Assembly (NCBI GenBank): GCA_948888345.1
Contig: CAQTPN010000018.1
Span: forward strand, 1-11,227
Source of the DNA: an uncultured bacterium
GTDB lineage: Bacteria > Cyanobacteriota > Vampirovibrionia > Gastranaerophilales > Gastranaerophilaceae
Direction of reading: 5' to 3'
Length of the DNA stretch: 11,227 bases
The notes under the pieces were generated by a model. That model worked only from the letters and a program-made list of their open reading frames with translations. It ran no database searches and had not been told where the DNA came from. Below, one piece after another: positions 1 through 11,227 of this stretch. Numbering within the stretch: the first letter of the stretch is position 1; every line of letters starts with the position of its first letter. The position numbers and the translations under genes are program-made.

Positions 1-1386
1 TAATGCCATAGAGCTTGCACAGGTTGAACCCATTGAAGTTGAACCGTTTGATTCTAATACATCGGATGTTACCCTTATGGTGTACGGGAAATCTTTTTCA
101 TCAGGCAAAGCGGGAACATTTGCGCGTTCTGCTAAATTACCATGGCCGATTTCACGTCTTCCGGGACCTCTTAATGGTTTTACTTCACCAACAGAGAAGC
201 CGGGGAATATATATTTATGCATATAGCTTTTTTTAGTCAAAGGGTCAACGCCGTCTAATTCTTGAGCCATTTGGGGACCTGCTAAGGTTGCACAGGACAG
301 AATCTGGGTTTGACCTCTTGTAAATACGGCGCTTCCGTGTGCTCTTGGAATTACGCCTACTTCACACCAGATGGGGCGTACTTCAAAAGTTTTCCTGCCA
401 TCAGCTCTAACGCCTTCATTTACAATCATTGCTCTCATTATTTTCTTTTCAAGAGCTTTGAATTCTTCCGCTACAAAATCAATTCCCGTTTCTTCCATCA
501 TAGTTTTAATAGGATGGTTGTCATCAAGGGCTGTTACTTTATCTTTAACAATTTGTTTTGCTTCATCAAGTTTGTTTTTTCTGTATTCGCGGTCAAAATT
601 ATGATAAGCATCTGAAATCATATCATAACAATTATCTTTAATGATTGCTGCAAGTTCAGATGTATCATAAGGATTTACAAAGTTTTCACGTTCAACGCCG
701 CAGCGGTTTGCAAATTCAATTTGTGCTTCACATTGTTTTTTGATTTCAACTTGCGCAAATTCAACAGCAGCCATAATATCGTCTTCTGTTACGAATTTGC
801 ATCCGGCCTCAACCATAATAACAGAATCCATAGTTCCTGCTACAACGATATCCATATCTGATTTTTCAGCTTCCTGATGGGTCGGGTTTGCAATCATCTG
901 TCCTTCTATTCTGCCTACGCGAACAGCACCGACAGGGCCTTCAAAAGGAGCACCTGAAAGCATTAAAGCGGTTGAAGCACCCAAAATTGCTAAAGTATCA
1001 GGCTGATTTTTCTGGTCATAGCTGAATAATTGAACAACAACCTGAACGTCGTTTCTGTATCCTTTAGGCCACAGAGGTCTGATTGGTCTGTCTATTAATC
1101 TTGATACCAAGATTGCTTTTTCTGAAGATTTTCCTTCGGTTCTTGTAAAGCCTCCGGGGATTCTTCCGATTGCTGACATTCTTTCTTCATAATCAATTAA
1201 TAACGGGAAAAAATCAATCCCAACACGGGGTTCTTTGCTTACCGTTGAGTGGATAAATAACATTGTATCTTCACATTTTACGGTAACTGAGGAAGTTGCA
1301 CTCTGTGCATATTTTCCTGTTTCAATTTCTACAATCTTCCCGCCGATTGTAACTTGCATTTTTTTAGATTCCGGCATGTTTTCCAT
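1..1386 (-). CDS. pnp: Polyribonucleotide nucleotidyltransferase (PNPase), N-terminal 462 residues; cut by left edge
   Basis: PNPase degrades RNA 3' to 5' with phosphate, releasing nucleoside diphosphates, and is a core part of bacterial mRNA turnover. Translating the minus strand gives an uninterrupted frame from ATG at 1386 to the window edge. Residues about 11-140 are the first RNase PH domain, with RIPGGFTRTEG (75-85) and SRLIDRPIRPLWPKG (95-109). Residues about 236-310 are the helical linker. The second RNase PH domain starts near 313 and contains GPGRREIGHG (407-416) and the VLESNGSTSMGS block near the edge. The KH and S1 RNA-binding domains lie outside the window. The start at 1386 has only a purine-rich leader (AGAAAGAAAAG) rather than a clear ribosome site; ATG at 1377 is an alternative. 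It is divergent from the hydrolase gene. No rpsO gene, the usual upstream neighbour, is present. Identification is secure. Confidence 0.97.
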   Translation of the reverse strand, partial: MENMPESKKMQVTIGGKIVEIETGKYAQSATSSVTVKCEDTMLFIHSTVSKEPRVGIDFFPLLIDYEERMSAIGRIPGGFTRTEGKSSEKAILVSRLIDRPIRPLWPKGYRNDVQVVVQLFSYDQKNQPDTLAILGASTALMLSGAPFEGPVGAVRVGRIEGQMIANPTHQEAEKSDMDIVVAGTMDSVIMVEAGCKFVTEDDIMAAVEFAQVEIKKQCEAQIEFANRCGVERENFVNPYDTSELAAIIKDNCYDMISDAYHNFDREYRKNKLDEAKQIVKDKVTALDDNHPIKTMMEETGIDFVAEEFKALEKKIMRAMIVNEGVRADGRKTFEVRPIWCEVGVIPRAHGSAVFTRGQTQILSCATLAGPQMAQELDGVDPLTKKSYMHKYIFPGFSVGEVKPLRGPGRREIGHGNLAERANVPALPDEKDFPYTIRVTSDVLESNGSTSMGSTCASSMAL

Positions 1387-1581
1387 TTTTCTTTTCTTTC
1401 TTAAATTTTCTACACTTCTTTATTTTCTTTAATTTTATAATAAAGACGAATGAAAAGAAAGAAAAATTAATATTGCTTCATATTGCAAATAAAAATAATA
1501 TTCCCTTGTCGGATATTTGCTATTTGTGATACGCTCTGCTAAGATGATAAATATTAACCGTGCCCAAAGAAAGGGACGAAT
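1387..1581. promoter_or_regulatory. Divergent intergenic region between pnp and the hydrolase operon
   Basis: This 195-bp AT-rich spacer must hold the start signals for both directions. A plus-strand promoter is visible at 1517-1545. On the minus strand the pnp leader is purine-rich; TATAAA/TATTAT-like sequences around 1431-1442 could serve as a -10, but no good -35 is paired with them. The exact direct repeat ATATTGC occurs at 1470-1476 and 1480-1486, spaced by 10 bp. No small gene or strong hairpin was seen. Confidence 0.5.
1517..1545 (+). promoter_or_regulatory. Candidate sigma-70-type promoter for the hydrolase-acyltransferase operon
   Basis: TTGCTA (1517-1522) and TAAGAT (1540-1545) are 17 bp apart, and TG at 1537-1538 forms an extended -10. 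Transcription would begin near 1552, giving a leader of about 30 bases before the TTG start at 1582. Each hexamer matches consensus at four of six positions. The call rests on spacing and placement only. Confidence 0.45.
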
Positions 1582-2523
1582 TTGACGATAAATAAAGCAT
1601 TGCGGGCCGCATTAGCAGTATTATCTTCCAGAGATATTGATATTAAGAAGAATTATCCGCTTGCAAGAGAATTTGAAAAAATAAAATCGTGGCGTTTGAA
1701 AAAGCCCGAACTTTACCATATCTGGGAGCATAATATAAGCCGCGGGAAATATGATATTCCCGTAAGAATTTTTACACCTGTTGAAAATAATTCCAATACC
1801 CTGCTTTTATTTTTCCATGGCGGAGGATGGGTTACAGGAAATATAGACAGCTATGACGGAGTTTGTTCCGATATGTCTAAATTAACCGGCCACAGAGTAG
1901 TTTCGGTTGATTACAGGCTTGCTCCCGAATATCGTTTTCCCTGCGGGCTGGAGGATTGTTATACTGTCGCAAAAGAAATATTTTTAAACAGTGATTTATT
2001 TAATGTTAAACCTGAAAATATTATATTAATAGGAGACAGTGCAGGCGGAAATCTTGCTGCAGCAGTTTCCCTTCTTGCGCGCAACCGCAAAGAATTTTTA
2101 CCGTCTGCACAAATTTTAATATATCCTGTCCTGGCATCCGACCATTCGGAAAATTCCCCGTTTGCATCCGTACATGAAAACGGAACAGGGTATCTGCTAA
2201 CGGCAAAACGTGTAAGAGATTATATGGAGCTTTACTCTTCTTCAAAATCGGATTTTGATAATCCGTATTTTGCGCCGCTTATCTCAAAGGATTTTTCAAA
2301 TCTTCCATCCACTCTCATTATTACGGCGCAATACGACCCTCTGCGGGATGAGGGAGAAGAATACGGGCATAAATTGCTTGCATCGGGCGGATGTGCAAAA
2401 ATTGTGAGGATACCGGATGTGCTTCACGGGTATTTTTCTCTTCCAAGCTGGTTTGCGCAGGTGAGAAAAACCTATGATATTATTAATGAATTTTTAGAGG
2501 AGCAAAAATTTAATGAGCAATAG
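1582..2523 (+). CDS. Alpha/beta hydrolase, HSL (hormone-sensitive lipase) family esterase
   Basis: This is a 313-residue serine hydrolase expected to cleave carboxylic esters; the true substrate is unknown. It has the HSL-family oxyanion motif HGGGW (79-83), the nucleophile elbow GDSAGG (151-156, Ser153), an acid residue in QYDPLRDEG (Asp252) and a histidine in VLHGYF (His282). The catalytic triad is therefore complete. VDYRLAPE (109-116) is also typical of the family. No signal peptide is seen, so it is probably cytoplasmic. The start is TTG at 1582, preceded by AAGGGA at 1571-1576; the first in-frame ATG is about 97 codons later, beyond the oxyanion motif. Its end overlaps the acyltransferase start by 11 bases, so the two are probably translated together. 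Family assignment is strong. Confidence 0.92.
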   Translation: MTINKALRAALAVLSSRDIDIKKNYPLAREFEKIKSWRLKKPELYHIWEHNISRGKYDIPVRIFTPVENNSNTLLLFFHGGGWVTGNIDSYDGVCSDMSKLTGHRVVSVDYRLAPEYRFPCGLEDCYTVAKEIFLNSDLFNVKPENIILIGDSAGGNLAAAVSLLARNRKEFLPSAQILIYPVLASDHSENSPFASVHENGTGYLLTAKRVRDYMELYSSSKSDFDNPYFAPLISKDFSNLPSTLIITAQYDPLRDEGEEYGHKLLASGGCAKIVRIPDVLHGYFSLPSWFAQVRKTYDIINEFLEEQKFNEQ

Positions 2524-3787
2524 AGTTTTGCCAAGGTGGCGGCGTTTGGATAATGCAGCAAAAATATTCCCGTCAAACAGCAGCCTGCGGGATTCTAAAG
2601 TGTTTCGTTTTACATGTGAACTTAAAGACTATGTTGATGATGTAATTTTGCAATCATCTTTAGATAAGACTATGGAACAGTTTCCCTTTTACCAATCCGT
2701 GATGAAAAGGGGACTGTTCTGGTATTACCTTGAAGAAAGCAATATACGCCCTGTTGTAGAAAAAGAAAGCCGTCCTCCCTGTATGCCTTTATATGATGAA
2801 AACCGGGAAAAATTACTATTCCGCGTGCTTTATTATAATAAACGTATTAGTGTTGAAATGTATCATACATTGACGGATGGCACAGGTGCTCTGCAGTTTT
2901 TGCGGACTCTTGTTTATTATTATCTTTTGGAACGCTATAAGGAAGAATTTGCAAGTAATCCTCCCTTGCTGGATTATAATGCCTCATGGTTTCAAAAGCA
3001 GGATGACAGTTTCCAAAAATATTACGAAAAACCTGCAGGAACAAAGACTTTAAAGCGGAAAAAGGCGTTTCGTTTAAAAAAAGAATTTCTGCCTGATAAT
3101 CATCTGGCAATTATAGAAGGAAAGCTGTCACTTAAAGCCTTGCTGGAACGCTCAAGGTCCATGGGTATGACCATAACGGAACTTTTGACGGCTTTATTTA
3201 TAAAGGCTATTTATCAGGAAATGAGTTTAAGGGATAGAAAAAAGCCCGTAGTGATTACAATACCTGTAAATTTGCGCAATTATTTTCCTTCGGAAACAGC
3301 GCGCAACTTTTTTACTGTAATTAATGCCGGATATGATTTCAGCTGCCAGGATGACAGCATTGAAGCAGTTGCTGCCCATATAAGGCAGGTATTCAAAGAG
3401 GAATTGAAGAAAGAAAAACTCAGAGAACAAATGAATATCTGGTCGGCATTAGAACACAATCCTTTTATTCGTTTACTGCCTCTTTTTATAAAAGATGCGA
3501 TATTGCAGGCTGCATCTTTTGGTATGAGAGGAAAGGCAACAGCCTCTTTTTCAAATGTGGGGCGGGTTGCAATGCCTGAAGAAATGGAAAAATACATAAG
3601 TCTTTTTGATGCTTTTACCTCTCCAAATATCTTGCAGGCATGTTCCTGCTCTTTTGGAGATAATTATGTTATAAGCTTTGCATCACCTTTTTTAGACCAT
3701 GATGTTGAATGCAACTTTTTTAGGTCTTTGAGTCTTATGGGTATAGAAGCGGAAATTATCACCAATAAAATAGAAACAGAAGGATAA
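2513..3787 (+). CDS. Condensation-fold acyltransferase (alcohol acetyltransferase / PapA5-like)
   Basis: This 424-residue protein has the architecture of the CoA-dependent acyltransferase/condensation superfamily, often annotated as alcohol acetyltransferase (COG4908). Such enzymes move an acyl group from a thioester to an alcohol or amine. The active-site motif is YHTLTDG (117-123); the family pattern is HHxxxDG, so the catalytic second histidine is His118 while the first is replaced by Tyr. PVNLRNYFPSETARNF (251-266) and SNVG (347-350) match the conserved C-terminal-lobe positions as I recall them. No membrane segment or signal peptide is seen. AGAGGAG lies about 9 bases upstream of the ATG, inside the end of the hydrolase gene. 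Pairing with an esterase suggests acylation and deacylation of one product, possibly a lipid, but the substrate cannot be read from the sequence. Confidence 0.82.
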   Translation: MSNRVLPRWRRLDNAAKIFPSNSSLRDSKVFRFTCELKDYVDDVILQSSLDKTMEQFPFYQSVMKRGLFWYYLEESNIRPVVEKESRPPCMPLYDENREKLLFRVLYYNKRISVEMYHTLTDGTGALQFLRTLVYYYLLERYKEEFASNPPLLDYNASWFQKQDDSFQKYYEKPAGTKTLKRKKAFRLKKEFLPDNHLAIIEGKLSLKALLERSRSMGMTITELLTALFIKAIYQEMSLRDRKKPVVITIPVNLRNYFPSETARNFFTVINAGYDFSCQDDSIEAVAAHIRQVFKEELKKEKLREQMNIWSALEHNPFIRLLPLFIKDAILQAASFGMRGKATASFSNVGRVAMPEEMEKYISLFDAFTSPNILQACSCSFGDNYVISFASPFLDHDVECNFFRSLSLMGIEAEIITNKIETEG

Positions 3788-3793
3788 TCATTT

Positions 3794-4459
3794 ATGTTAT
3801 ATTGTGAAAAATGTAAAATAAGTGCAGCGGGCAATATTGAAAAATGTCCTCTTTGCGGAGGAAACTTGTCGGGCGATATTTGTGACGATGCGGAGGCATT
3901 TCCTGTAATTCCACCCGTAAAACCGAAGCGTTATTTGACTTTTAAAATACTTATTCTTATTAGTGTTATCACTGCAGCTGTGTGTTTTGCGGTGAATGCA
4001 AGCACGGAACTGCAAAGCTGGTGGTTGAATTATGTTCTTGCTGGGTTTGCAAGCTTCTGGATTATTTTTGGTATGGCAATAAAAAAGCGTGAAAATCCGG
4101 TAAAAGCTGTTTTGTGGGTTAATATTGCGGCTTCCCTGCTGCTTCTTTTATGGGATTTAGCTACAGGTTTTTTATGCTGGTCTATTAATTATGCTCTTCC
4201 TGTTTTATATATATGTGCAATATTTGCTATCGTTGTATTGTCTTGCTTTTTGCACTTAAAGCCACAGGATTATATATTCTACCTTATACTGAATATTCTG
4301 CTTGGAATGATTCCTTTGATATTATACCTTTTTAGTGTGCCTGATGTTGTTTATCCTTCTGCAGTTTGCGCTGCAATAAGTATTGTTACTATGGCAACAT
4401 TGATTATTTTTAAAGGTGGTGCCCTAAAAGAAGAACTGGATAGAAGGCTGCATATATAA
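3794..4459 (+). CDS. Zinc-ribbon integral membrane protein (DUF6320-like)
   Basis: A 221-residue protein with an N-terminal zinc ribbon (Cys4, Cys7, Cys18, Cys21) followed by a charged linker and about six hydrophobic segments (roughly 49-67, 79-95, 105-121, 131-152, 160-181, 188-206). The ribbon should face the cytoplasm. It resembles proteins labelled DUF6320 that I recall next to alcohol acetyltransferase and alpha/beta hydrolase genes in Clostridia; this is from memory and unverified. AGAAGGA (3778-3784) overlaps the acyltransferase stop and sits 9 bases before the ATG, so the gene belongs to the same operon. It may anchor or regulate the two enzymes at the membrane, but no function is established. 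Its stop is one base from the convergent HCP-like gene. Confidence 0.8.
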   Translation: MLYCEKCKISAAGNIEKCPLCGGNLSGDICDDAEAFPVIPPVKPKRYLTFKILILISVITAAVCFAVNASTELQSWWLNYVLAGFASFWIIFGMAIKKRENPVKAVLWVNIAASLLLLLWDLATGFLCWSINYALPVLYICAIFAIVVLSCFLHLKPQDYIFYLILNILLGMIPLILYLFSVPDVVYPSAVCAAISIVTMATLIIFKGGALKEELDRRLHI

Positions 4460-4460
4460 A

Positions 4461-5936
4461 TTATATTATACCTGCATTAAATTCTTTTGTGAGAGCATTT
4501 ATTATGTGCGGATTAATTATAGAATTCGGGCATTTTGAAAAGTATAGTTTTTTAGGGTTGAAATAAAGTGTACTTAACAGAATATTTAAAGTATTCGGTG
4601 TACAATGGGTGAATATTAAATTTAAATTTTTGCAATTTCTTTCTTTTAAGATATATATTAAAAGCTGAATTTCAACCGGAGAATCAAGCTCTATCAATGT
4701 TTTATCTTTAAATTGTTTTACAATTTCTTCTTTTTTATATGAACCTATAATAACATATATATCTTCATCTTGGGCCTTTTCGATAATTTTGCTGATTTCT
4801 TTTGTGTTGTATTTTAATTTAATTTTAGTATTTTTTTCAACATCCTCTGCAGTAAAACCTGTTGAATTCAGTGCATTTTCAATCAACGGTTCAAAATCAT
4901 TATTTTCAACCCTTATCATTTTTTCAGGAGAGATAATTTTTGTTGTATAAATTGTTCCGTGGCGAAGATAATCCACCTTTTGCAAGAAATTTTGCGTGGT
5001 GAAAATCGGGCCTTTAAAGTTTGTAAAATCAACCTGCGCATTTTCATATCCAAAATGTGCGATTAAATTTTTATACTTTAAAAAATGCGGATAACAAAAA
5101 GCGGTAAACAGGCTTGAATTTGTGTAGACATTGATTTTCCTATCACCGATTGCATTTAATAATTTATCAAGCTCGTTTAAATCGGAACCTGAAACAAGAA
5201 TTGATTTGCCTTCTTTTATTTCAAAGTTTATATCTGTTTCAATTCTTTTTCCGTAAGTTTCTTCAAGGGTTTCAGTTAACTTCTGCCAGATATCAAAGGA
5301 GATTTTTGAAAAATCACATATATTTTGCTTCAGTTTTTCAGTTTTTTTAGATGAAATATTTGTTAAATTAAGGAATTTTAAGATTTGAAAATTCCATTCA
5401 AAGTTTTGATACCCTAAAGAAGCTAATTTTTCAATATTTATACTTGTTGTTCTTGCAAAAAACGCTATAAGTTCAATTAAATCAAACTTTTTTGGTTCAT
5501 ATTCGCGTCTTTTTTCAGAAACAATTGTCTCGCCCAGCCTTAAAAGGTTTGTGCGGGAAGGGTTAATCGGAAGCTTGTGGGCATTTTCAACAAGTTCGTA
5601 TTTTATGCTTTTTTCTTTAGCATTTTTTAAATAACATTCTCTTACCTTAAATTTATCTTCTTCAAGAGAATATAAGAGTTTTTTGTAATCATCCAGCTTA
5701 AATGCTGTATTTATAAGTATTACAGAAAGTGCGTGTACTGCATTTTGAATGATTTTATCATCTTTCATATTAAAATCTGAAAGCTTTACAACATAAAATG
5801 CAATTTGCTTAATTTCATTTAGTAATAATTCTTCAAGTGCATAAACCGAAGGGTCTATTGTACAGCCTCCGTTTGAGCCTTCCGATGTATTGCAGTTATT
5901 GGTATCCTGATATTCGTTAAAAAAATTGTTTGTCAT
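4461..5936 (-). CDS. Hybrid cluster protein (prismane) homologue lacking the metal-cluster ligands
   Basis: This 491-residue protein follows the hybrid cluster protein (HCP) pattern along its length, including VSGSDLNELDKLL (248-260), GPIFTTQNF (309-317), an IYTT segment (329-332), DFEPLIENAL (347-356) and a C-terminal INPHIINALTKEF block. Canonical HCP uses an N-terminal cysteine cluster and a hybrid Fe-S-O cluster held by His, Glu, Cys and a persulfide Cys, and acts in nitric oxide or hydroxylamine reduction and protein S-nitrosylation. By my alignment those ligands are gone. The GHDL histidine is Ser251, the HSEML glutamate is Ser275, the TTNC cysteine is Asn316, and the GGCDG cysteine is Ser399. 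SWYEQKA has become THCTPNT. A segment of about 25 residues with two further ligand cysteines is missing near 415-420. Only Cys15 and Cys25 might remain of the N-terminal four. The reading frame is intact. Two sampled 60-base lines (4621, 5341) are only 18-22% G+C. No ribosome site precedes the ATG. Confidence 0.82.
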   Translation of the reverse strand: MTNNFFNEYQDTNNCNTSEGSNGGCTIDPSVYALEELLLNEIKQIAFYVVKLSDFNMKDDKIIQNAVHALSVILINTAFKLDDYKKLLYSLEEDKFKVRECYLKNAKEKSIKYELVENAHKLPINPSRTNLLRLGETIVSEKRREYEPKKFDLIELIAFFARTTSINIEKLASLGYQNFEWNFQILKFLNLTNISSKKTEKLKQNICDFSKISFDIWQKLTETLEETYGKRIETDINFEIKEGKSILVSGSDLNELDKLLNAIGDRKINVYTNSSLFTAFCYPHFLKYKNLIAHFGYENAQVDFTNFKGPIFTTQNFLQKVDYLRHGTIYTTKIISPEKMIRVENNDFEPLIENALNSTGFTAEDVEKNTKIKLKYNTKEISKIIEKAQDEDIYVIIGSYKKEEIVKQFKDKTLIELDSPVEIQLLIYILKERNCKNLNLIFTHCTPNTLNILLSTLYFNPKKLYFSKCPNSIINPHIINALTKEFNAGII

Positions 5937-5996: not shown

Positions 5997-6890
5997 TTAA
6001 GATAATTTCAGGGCAAGATTTATGGCTTCAATCATTCCTTCAGGGTTTGCAATGCCTTTTCCCGCAATATCATAGGCAGTACCTGATGATGGGGAAGTTC
6101 TGATTATTTTTAAACCTATGGTTGTATTTACGACCTTTTTAAAGCATAGGGCTTTAACGGGGCAAAGGCCCTGGTCATGATAAGAGGCAAGTATACAGTC
6201 ATAATCCTGCTTTTGGTTGTTAATATATTTTTCTCCGACATGTGCAAAAAGTCCGTCTGCACTTAAAGGCGGGGTAATGTTAATTCCGATTTTTCTTAGA
6301 TGATTTATAGCGGGAGTCATTATTTCAATTTCTTCAAAACCCAGAATTCCATTTTCTCCTGCATGCGGGTTTAGTGCACAAAGGGCAAAACGGGGCTTTT
6401 TGATGCCGCATTTTTCAATTAAAAATTTATTTGTTCTTAAAACTTTTTCTATAATTAAATCTTTTGTCAGTTTAATGTCTTTAAGTGCAAGGTGGCGGGT
6501 CAGAAGAAGCACCCTTAAATCATTTGAGATAAACATCATTTCCGCTTTTGAATTTTCATCTCCTAAGAATTCCTGTAAAATTTCAGTTTGCCCTGAATAT
6601 TTATATCCTGATTTATGAAGGGCTTCTTTTGAAACAGGGGCTGTTACAATTGCATTTATTTTTCCTTTATTTGCAAGAGATGAAGCTGTTTTTAATGCTT
6701 CAAAGCAGAATCTTCCGTTATCGGATGGGTCAATTTCAATTGTTTCATATGTTTTATTTAATGCACCGTTAAGATTTTTTCCTATTATTAAAACCTGATT
6801 TTCCGGTAAATTCAGCGCATTTAGGGCTTTTATTGTTATCTCTTCTCCAATGCCCAGAATATCTCCTGTTGTGATTGCAATTTTATTCAT
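5997..6890 (-). CDS. pdxA2: PdxA-family dehydrogenase, probably 4-phospho-threonate/erythronate dehydrogenase (PdxA2)
   Basis: PdxA-family enzymes are metal- and NAD-dependent oxidative decarboxylases. Classical PdxA acts on 4-phosphohydroxythreonine in vitamin B6 synthesis, whereas PdxA2 members act on 4-phospho-threonate or -erythronate and yield dihydroxyacetone phosphate. The protein has 297 residues, shorter than E. coli PdxA (329). Metal ligands are intact: TRHLALKD (His133), NPHAGE (His176) and YHDQG (His238). The N-terminus reads TGDILGIGEE where GDPAGIGPE is usual. The substrate-binding GHTE motif is SGQTE (Gln101), and RTSxxxGTA contains Ser268-Ser269 where a histidine is usual. PdxA2 is preferred because the gene overlaps the acid-sugar kinase by 8 bases (ATGAATAA). 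A B6 role cannot be excluded. It has no clear ribosome site and probably relies on coupling with the kinase. Confidence 0.85.
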   Translation of the reverse strand: MNKIAITTGDILGIGEEITIKALNALNLPENQVLIIGKNLNGALNKTYETIEIDPSDNGRFCFEALKTASSLANKGKINAIVTAPVSKEALHKSGYKYSGQTEILQEFLGDENSKAEMMFISNDLRVLLLTRHLALKDIKLTKDLIIEKVLRTNKFLIEKCGIKKPRFALCALNPHAGENGILGFEEIEIMTPAINHLRKIGINITPPLSADGLFAHVGEKYINNQKQDYDCILASYHDQGLCPVKALCFKKVVNTTIGLKIIRTSPSSGTAYDIAGKGIANPEGMIEAINLALKLS

Positions 6891-8196
6891 TTATGTGGTG
6901 CTCAAAATATTTTACTATATCAATGAGGGTGGATGAAGTACCTAAATTTCCTGATTTTGTAACAATCAGCTGGGCATTTGAATCCATACAAAGGGGGATT
7001 GACGGGAGGATGGAATCTACAACCTGCAAGTATTCGCAATTTATGGCTTTAGAGCATCTGTAAGATGTTTCTCCGCCTATTGTAATCAGAATAAATTGTG
7101 CTTTTTGCTTGATTAAATTTGCAAGCTTTGCAAGGTAATCAGTTATTCTTTCCGCCAAGTCTTCTTTTGTAATGCCTTCATCTATTAATTTGTTCTTTTC
7201 TGCATCATTGGACAGTTCTTCTTCAAGATTACATACATGAACTGCTACAATATTATCCTTTACAAGGTTTGATACTATTCTTTCAATAAGTGTTTCATCG
7301 GGGCCTTTTAAGATATCATCAAGATGAAGCGGTACAAAATATGTGTTTTGAATGTCTGTATCCATTTCAAGTTTTTTCATCTGCAAAGCCGTTAAAGATG
7401 TTGCGGAGCCTGAAAGTATTAATTTTGGAAGGTTTGGTATTTGTTTTTGAACAGGGGGTTTGATTTCACTAAGCCAGACAGCACCAAGAGCATGAGCAAG
7501 GCCTGCTGAACCTGCCGGTAATATATTAAAAGAACTTTTTTGCATTGCAAGAACTATCTGCTCAAGGTCAACTGTGGACACGGAATCCATCACAATTAAT
7601 TTTTTACCTGCTGAAATTAATTCATTAAGTTTCAAGGCAATAGGGCCTGCACCTTTTGTTATTGTTTTAAGTTCAATTGAGGCCACCAAATCCTGTGCAT
7701 TTTCGCTCAAGCCTTTTTTTAAGATATCAGGAATATAAGAGTCATATATCGGAGCTTTGGGGTCGCGTGCAGCATCTGTTCTTTCAATCGGGATACCTTT
7801 TAAAAGCTGATATCCGCCGATTGTAATTCTTCCTTCCTGTACAAAAGCAGGGGCTACAATTGCGGCATCATACCCCGTGGCTTCAAGCATTGCAAGAATT
7901 TCAACCGGGATATTTCCTCTTAAAGTTGAATCAATTTTTTTATAAAAATATTCTATTCCAAATTTTTCTTTTAAAACCCTTGTGGCTTCAAATACTATTC
8001 TGCCTGCATCTTCCGGGTCTATATTTCTTGTTTCGTTGCAAAGTGCCCATGTTTCAACATTTAAATGATTTTCATTTAATGAATTTATATCAAGGATAAT
8101 TTCAGTATTTGAACCTTTCATAAAAAATTGAAGAGCAGTATCGTTTGCACCTGTAAGGTCATCAGCTACTATCCCTATAGAATTAGAAATTAACAT
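6883..8196 (-). CDS. Four-carbon acid sugar kinase (former DUF1537), threonate/erythronate kinase type
   Basis: This 437-residue protein belongs to the ATP-dependent kinase family formerly called DUF1537, which phosphorylates four-carbon acid sugars such as D-threonate, L-threonate or erythronate at O4. The N-terminal domain carries ADDLTGANDTA (11-21) and KKIDSTLRGN (86-95); APAFVQEGRITIGGYQL follows at 115-131. The C-terminal nucleotide-binding domain has GSAGLA (229-234), IGGETS (373-378) and VTKSGNLG (412-419). Length and domain order are normal for the family. The ATG follows the ssb stop codon with no gap, and AGGGA (8210-8206) inside ssb lies 9 bases upstream. The dehydrogenase for the next step follows immediately. 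Which acid sugar is used (dtnK- or otnK-type) cannot be told from sequence alone. Confidence 0.93.
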   Translation of the reverse strand: MLISNSIGIVADDLTGANDTALQFFMKGSNTEIILDINSLNENHLNVETWALCNETRNIDPEDAGRIVFEATRVLKEKFGIEYFYKKIDSTLRGNIPVEILAMLEATGYDAAIVAPAFVQEGRITIGGYQLLKGIPIERTDAARDPKAPIYDSYIPDILKKGLSENAQDLVASIELKTITKGAGPIALKLNELISAGKKLIVMDSVSTVDLEQIVLAMQKSSFNILPAGSAGLAHALGAVWLSEIKPPVQKQIPNLPKLILSGSATSLTALQMKKLEMDTDIQNTYFVPLHLDDILKGPDETLIERIVSNLVKDNIVAVHVCNLEEELSNDAEKNKLIDEGITKEDLAERITDYLAKLANLIKQKAQFILITIGGETSYRCSKAINCEYLQVVDSILPSIPLCMDSNAQLIVTKSGNLGTSSTLIDIVKYFEHHINE

Positions 8197-10730: not shown

Positions 10731-11227
10731 CTATGAGCCGGCAAGGACTATGGTAAAATCCCTTGCAGCTTTGTTTAAGCCTATAGGGTCATATACAGTC
10801 TGCTTATTTTTTATATCGGGAATATTTTTCTTTAAACTTACAATAACATCTGTCGGCAAATCAAGGTTATGAATTGCAATATGGTCATGTCCAAGTTTTG
10901 TTGCAGATTTCATATTTACATTCATGCCGTTATTTTCAAGTGCCTGCTTTATATCAATGGCTTTTGTTTCCATATCGGATGTGTATAAAATGCCTACAGA
11001 AACTGGACCATTTAGAGCTTTTGGCTTATCTCTGTATACCAATCTGTTAATGATATCCTGAGTTTTTTCAGGGTCTAAAATCCAATAGCTGATACTGCCT
11101 CTTTGAGATGGAGACCCCGGAAGAGTAGCTACCTGAACAGTTGTCATATCAATGCTCTTAGCAAGGGCTGCGTATTGAGATAACTCATAAACCGATAAAT
11201 CAGTTAAAATATATTTTGGCATTACCT
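10731..11227 (-). CDS. LCP-family (LytR-CpsA-Psr) cell-envelope protein, C-terminal part with LytR_C domain; cut by right edge
   Basis: LCP proteins sit in the membrane with an outward catalytic domain that attaches glycopolymers to peptidoglycan or other envelope carriers. Only the C-terminal 165 or so codons are visible. TDLSVYELSQYAALAKSID, VATLPG and SYWILD belong to the end of the LCP domain. The stretch from about GPVSVGILYTSD to the end at FTIVLAGS fits a LytR_C domain. The frame stays open to the edge, and the ATG at 11222 has no proper ribosome site (AGGTA directly abuts it), so it is an internal Met rather than the start. The LCP catalytic residues and membrane anchor lie outside the window. 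Assignment is by motif style and moderately sure. Confidence 0.75.
   Translation of the reverse strand, partial: VMPKYILTDLSVYELSQYAALAKSIDMTTVQVATLPGSPSQRGSISYWILDPEKTQDIINRLVYRDKPKALNGPVSVGILYTSDMETKAIDIKQALENNGMNVNMKSATKLGHDHIAIHNLDLPTDVIVSLKKNIPDIKNKQTVYDPIGLNKAARDFTIVLAGS

Follow-up and report, generated by a model that had tools for sequence, protein, structure and literature searches.

A divergent hybrid cluster protein-like family lacking the hybrid-cluster ligands in Gastranaerophilales

What becomes of a metalloenzyme fold when the ligands of its defining cluster are gone? The hybrid cluster protein (HCP) is a nitric-oxide-handling iron-sulfur enzyme (hydroxylamine/NO reductase), and the unusual cluster that defines it is among the oddest metal clusters known. 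Within the stretch of 11,227 nucleotides analyzed here (the window), we confirmed the presence of a divergent HCP-like gene (Table 1). The window protein scores 70.3 bits with the Prismane/CODH superfamily profile PF03063, whose gathering score is 27, and its predicted model has the HCP fold, so that an earlier sequence-only reading, which took it for an intact HCP homologue, holds as far as the fold is concerned. Its scores of 141.6 bits for TIGR01703 (hydroxylamine reductase) and 146.3 bits for NF003658 are below the curated cut-offs of 360.8 and 367, respectively. We class the protein as a member of the Prismane superfamily and do not call it an HCP, and the evidence supports an intact HCP-fold protein without the hybrid-cluster ligands, not a pseudogene. 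Its identity to the Ni,Fe-CO dehydrogenases (CODH), of which CODH-V is the type with a hybrid cluster, is only 7-12%, with 330-400 residues of the model covered. Rfam gave no match inside the window at gathering scores.

Table 1. Features of the window discussed in the text
Feature	Position	Strand	Basis or remark
Divergent HCP-like gene, 491 aa	4461..5936	-	Profile, protein and model evidence
Cys15 codon, canonical C15 of the [4Fe-4S] site	5892..5894	-	Cys in 212/212 (another alignment: 78/93)
Cys25 codon, canonical C21	5862..5864	-	Cys in 196/212, Phe in 13
Ser251 codon, His244 ligand position	5184..5186	-	Alignment
Ser275 codon, Glu268 ligand position	5112..5114	-	Alignment
Phe317 codon, Cys312 ligand position	4986..4988	-	Alignment; earlier note had Asn316
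Ser399 codon, about the persulfide Cys406 position	4740..4742	-	Register less sure; shifts in other alignments
Cys445 codon, new family cysteine beside lost Glu494 ligand	4602..4604	-	Canonical Tyr/Phe
Thr446 codon, Glu494 ligand position	4599..4601	-	Alignment
Cys469 codon, new family cysteine past next strand	4530..4532	-	Canonical Thr/Ser
pdxA-type gene	5997..6890	-	60 bases upstream of the HCP-like gene, same strand

In an alignment of 136 proteins, all twelve marker residues, including the seven hybrid-cluster ligands (H244, E268, C312, C406, C434, C459 and E494), are present in each of 38 canonical proteins (30 from the order, seven from named plasmids and one cyanobacterial). In comparison with these HCP classes I-III (PF03063/TIGR01703), the window protein has all seven hybrid ligands replaced, together with C3 and C6. 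Two of the four [4Fe-4S] cysteines are kept, C15 and C21 (as C25); the absence of C3 and C6 bears out the loss of the N-terminal CxxC that had been noted before. The earlier list of ligand substitutions is also right, Ser251, Ser275, Ser399 and Thr446 included, except that Cys312 falls on Phe317, a position with Phe in 57 of 93 divergent proteins. Across 212 divergent proteins (93 plus 119, a partly redundant set with near-duplicates), none of the seven ligands is kept in 169 (66+103) and one in 43 (27+16), counts that vary with the alignment used, as those for C15 do. The 119 proteins represent a longer form of about 530 aa, and 115 of them have Asp at the Glu494 position, which is Thr in the window.

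The family has gained two cysteines that canonical proteins do not have. The pair C445/C469 is found in 208 of the 212 divergent proteins, a partly redundant set, and in none of the 38 canonical ones, where the canonical counterpart of C445 is the Tyr of WYEQKA, adjoining the ligand Glu494. Counted singly, C15 is present in 212 of the 212 proteins, C445 in 209 and C469 in 208; C106, an Ala in the window, is present in 197. The exceptions to the pair are three full-length proteins (L094, L097 and L102) in which both cysteines are gone together, and a fourth (P0020) that has a different C-terminal end and retains C445. Both AF2 models place a strand-helix-strand unit here (E438-442, C445, H447-459, E463-466, C469 in one; E468-472, C475, H477-488, E493-496, C499 in the other), with the cysteines three residues after consecutive strands and the first of them beside the Glu494 position. 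From this strand order, we infer that C445 and C469 would lie close in space. Confidence in both models is lowest at the N terminus, around C15 and C25, with residues 1-26 and 1-22 below 50.

A protein search returned 32 relatives, of which 27 (P0001-P0027, 482-509 aa) align with 94-100% of the query at 32-78% identity. A further search with 32 diverse members gave 832 clusters at E<=1e-10, not every one of which need be divergent, and the 119 proteins that were new among the best 120 examined make up the second part of the set above. Two of the new proteins have a named source: one is a 'hypothetical protein [bacterium]' and the other comes from Candidatus Stercorousia, which is a genus of Gastranaerophilales. 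Scanning genome contigs with the single protein produced no match, and an alignment-based scan produced two loci. The family profile matches 360 of the 383 sampled genomes of the order to which the relative L002 belongs, taken as Gastranaerophilales. About 333 of the 383, counted by eye, have a match at E<=1e-70, a threshold chosen because genomes with canonical HCP only reach 1e-32 to 1e-68; the intermediate G019 (1.5e-75) passes it as well. HCP over the TIGR01703 cut-off is present in 130 of the 383 genomes and PF03063 matches 346. By eye, about 110 genomes have both proteins, and about 220, or two thirds of the carriers, have the divergent protein without an HCP over the cut-off; these absences are soft because the completeness of the sampled genomes is untold and draft genomes may hide an HCP.

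The divergent protein is under purifying selection. Among 61 computed pairs, the 42 with dS <2 have dN/dS values of 0.036-0.319, and the window compared with L002 has 0.16 at a dS of 1.54; these are simple pairwise Nei-Gojobori counts for pairs preselected by shared words. One of the genome matches listed (G346) has an internal stop and the others listed have none. No relative of the divergent protein was found in viral contigs, and 45 plasmid and six phage records match only at <60% identity, the annotated plasmid matches among the 20 listed being hcp genes and the phage matches unannotated; a mobile element was rejected on these grounds.

The family appears to have arisen from HCP through forms that still exist. 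In a quick tree of 72 chosen rows, 50 divergent proteins form one clade and 18 canonical proteins another (SH-aLRT 100 each), and four intermediates (L125-L128) branch between them, L128 being weakly placed on a long branch. A search with one intermediate gave 109 proteins, one of them already in the set, and the other 108 were used in a graded series: all seven hybrid ligands are present in 62, and the others have 6, 4, 3, 2, 1 or 0, a few of them being fragments with ligands missing by truncation. The intermediates of the lineage (L125-L128 and P0152-P0163) keep two or three of the seven, and some have C469 only; in P0156-P0163, for example, three hybrid ligands and all four [4Fe-4S] cysteines are found together with a Cys already at 469. 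Unlike the window protein, L125 and P0155-P0163 retain all four [4Fe-4S] cysteines and, unlike the divergent family, none of the intermediates has C445. Because the series is graded, the hybrid-cluster ligands look as if they were lost stepwise in this lineage, judging by the sequences. A protein of 618 aa (P0244), in which PF08984 is fused to the Prismane domain, has the four [4Fe-4S] cysteines but lacks the cysteine pair and all but one of the seven hybrid ligands, and perhaps represents a separate ligand loss.

No order-wide gene neighborhood of the divergent gene was found among 63 loci, the setting varying by clade. A glutaredoxin-like gene with a CPYC motif is located directly upstream in 25 of the 63; 12 of these loci belong to one clade and 13 to a second, and no locus of either clade is without it. 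The 12-locus clade has a classical glutaredoxin (PF00462, E=3.2e-19; nine of the 12 loci are in the tree, and L089, L092 and L093 are near-copies of tree rows), and the 13-locus clade a GST_N_3-type glutaredoxin (E=1.6e-15). The gap to the HCP-like gene is 1-12 bases in 24 of the 25 loci, and at L119 the predicted start overlaps. Cross matches between the two glutaredoxin subfamilies are weak (22-34 bits), so the pairing arose twice or one glutaredoxin was exchanged for the other. Profiles built from the genes beside the target, which could overlook further glutaredoxins nearby, gave one further match (L072) in 1,136,493 bases around the 63 loci, none near the intermediates L125-L128 and none near the canonical HCPs L005-L034, where flanks are at most about 1.5 kb. 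No glutaredoxin gene adjoins the HCP-like gene at the remaining 38 loci, among them that of the window. Of 20 genomes from the window-type clade, 19 encode a PF00462 glutaredoxin in a short frame elsewhere (G001 showed none), which says little because 13 of 14 control genomes have one too.

The window's own surroundings are not shared widely. At 5997-8196, directly upstream of the HCP-like gene, a PdxA-type dehydrogenase gene and a gene for an SBD_N/NBD_C kinase (D-threonate kinase-like) overlap by eight bases, a pair that resembles four-carbon acid sugar pathways; the pair is unconserved in relatives, and the PdxA-type neighbor is absent from the other 62 loci. Within 1-4459, a plus-strand block of three genes (alpha/beta hydrolase, acyltransferase-like and DUF6320) is located between the PNPase cluster and the HCP-like gene. 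None of the other 62 loci has this block; its GC content is 0.37-0.40 compared with 0.29, and it looks like an insertion. Several relatives have one of the genes of the window's PNPase cluster downstream of the HCP-like gene on the same strand. At 17 loci (L067-L081, L085 and L088) the HCP-like gene adjoins a gene for a convergent protein (about 1286 aa), followed by genes for proteins of roughly 632 and 796 aa. The 1286-aa neighbor (L070) has no Pfam match, and neither does the 163-aa frame at 10731-11222 of the window at E<=1.

A conserved cysteine pair together with an upstream glutaredoxin would indicate thiol or metal redox chemistry. Our leading reading, to which we give a probability of about 0.4, is that cysteines in the former cluster pocket form a redox site which glutaredoxin reduces. 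A large clade would have branched from HCP, keeping the fold and losing the ligands of the Fe-S-O cluster step by step, while the old metal site gained C445 at a strand tip by the lost Glu494 and C469 at that of the following strand, with C15 retained. The new cysteines would form a dithiol/disulfide (or persulfide/nitrosothiol) redox site, reduced by a glutaredoxin whose gene immediately precedes that of the HCP-like protein in two clades and lies at another place in the genome in the window's clade; we infer both the reactivity of C445 and C469 and the electron flow from glutaredoxin. Counted against a thiol site are the 38 loci without an adjacent glutaredoxin, the retention of C15 and mostly of C25, neither of which a plain disulfide site needs, and the Asp common at the Glu494 position, which would suit a metal site equally well. 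More tentatively still, the family, which most sampled genomes of this gut order carry, may be a fourth HCP superfamily branch without the cluster, in which a metal enzyme became a cysteine redox protein stepwise and upstream glutaredoxins were recruited more than once.

We consider it rather unlikely that the cofactor was instead exchanged, the new cysteines holding with C15 and C25 a metal site of a simpler kind, such as zinc, a single iron or an ordinary Fe-S cluster. The near-invariance of C15, C445 and C469 together would suit such a site, as would C106 and the Asp at the Glu494 position in most proteins, though the window has Ala and Thr there. Some glutaredoxins carry Fe-S clusters, which also counts in its favor. 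However, the motif of cluster-carrying glutaredoxins is CGFS, and the 24 glutaredoxins listed have CPYC, the dithiol motif. The stretch with C15 and C25 is also the least confidently modeled, C25 is replaced by Phe in some proteins, and C15 is less constant in the other alignment (Table 1).

The sequence-only reading had favored a metal-free fold with a non-redox job such as partner binding, small-molecule sensing or regulation of a true HCP. The window protein does keep the fold without any hybrid-cluster ligand, and three full-length relatives do without the cysteine pair, yet we judge this reading unlikely given that nearly all members have gained the pair, with one cysteine beside a lost ligand, and that two clades are tightly paired with a glutaredoxin. 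Regulation of HCP as the chief role is further weakened because, by eye, about two thirds of the carrier genomes have no HCP over the cut-off. It is very improbable that the protein is a still unrecognized cluster-binding HCP with ligands at shifted positions: four conserved cysteines are left in the window protein (C15, C25, C445 and C469), but each of the 212 divergent proteins keeps at most one of the seven ligands, and no His or Glu is among the columns conserved in at least 85% of 92 divergent proteins (P0028 excluded). A decaying HCP copy, which low similarity to HCP and a shortened C-terminal domain might suggest, is contradicted by dN/dS values well below 1 and by the spread of the gene, with one internal stop among the matches listed, through most sampled genomes of the order, as the earlier argument against simple decay had anticipated.

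With a cysteine redox site, the family would work like the thiol-disulfide redox proteins without being a member of them; the two cysteines of its conserved pair may lie close in space, judging by strand order. It differs from HCP classes I-III in its new cysteines and in the glutaredoxin upstream in two clades. Among the open-licence papers listed, no title or abstract opening describes a ligand-free or glutaredoxin-linked HCP, or an HCP in this order, in line with the earlier statement that no ligand-free class was known. Passages of PMC1484493 make no mention of ligands, and PMC10210160 states that isolated genes often encode class I and III HCPs.

For annotation, with PF03063 matching 346 of the 383 sampled genomes and a full HCP present in 130, PF03063 counts alone would overstate HCP-type nitrogen-oxide handling in these bacteria. 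A conserved family that keeps the fold without the cluster, together with living intermediates that retain two or three of the seven ligands, would let the change in a metal enzyme's chemistry be watched.
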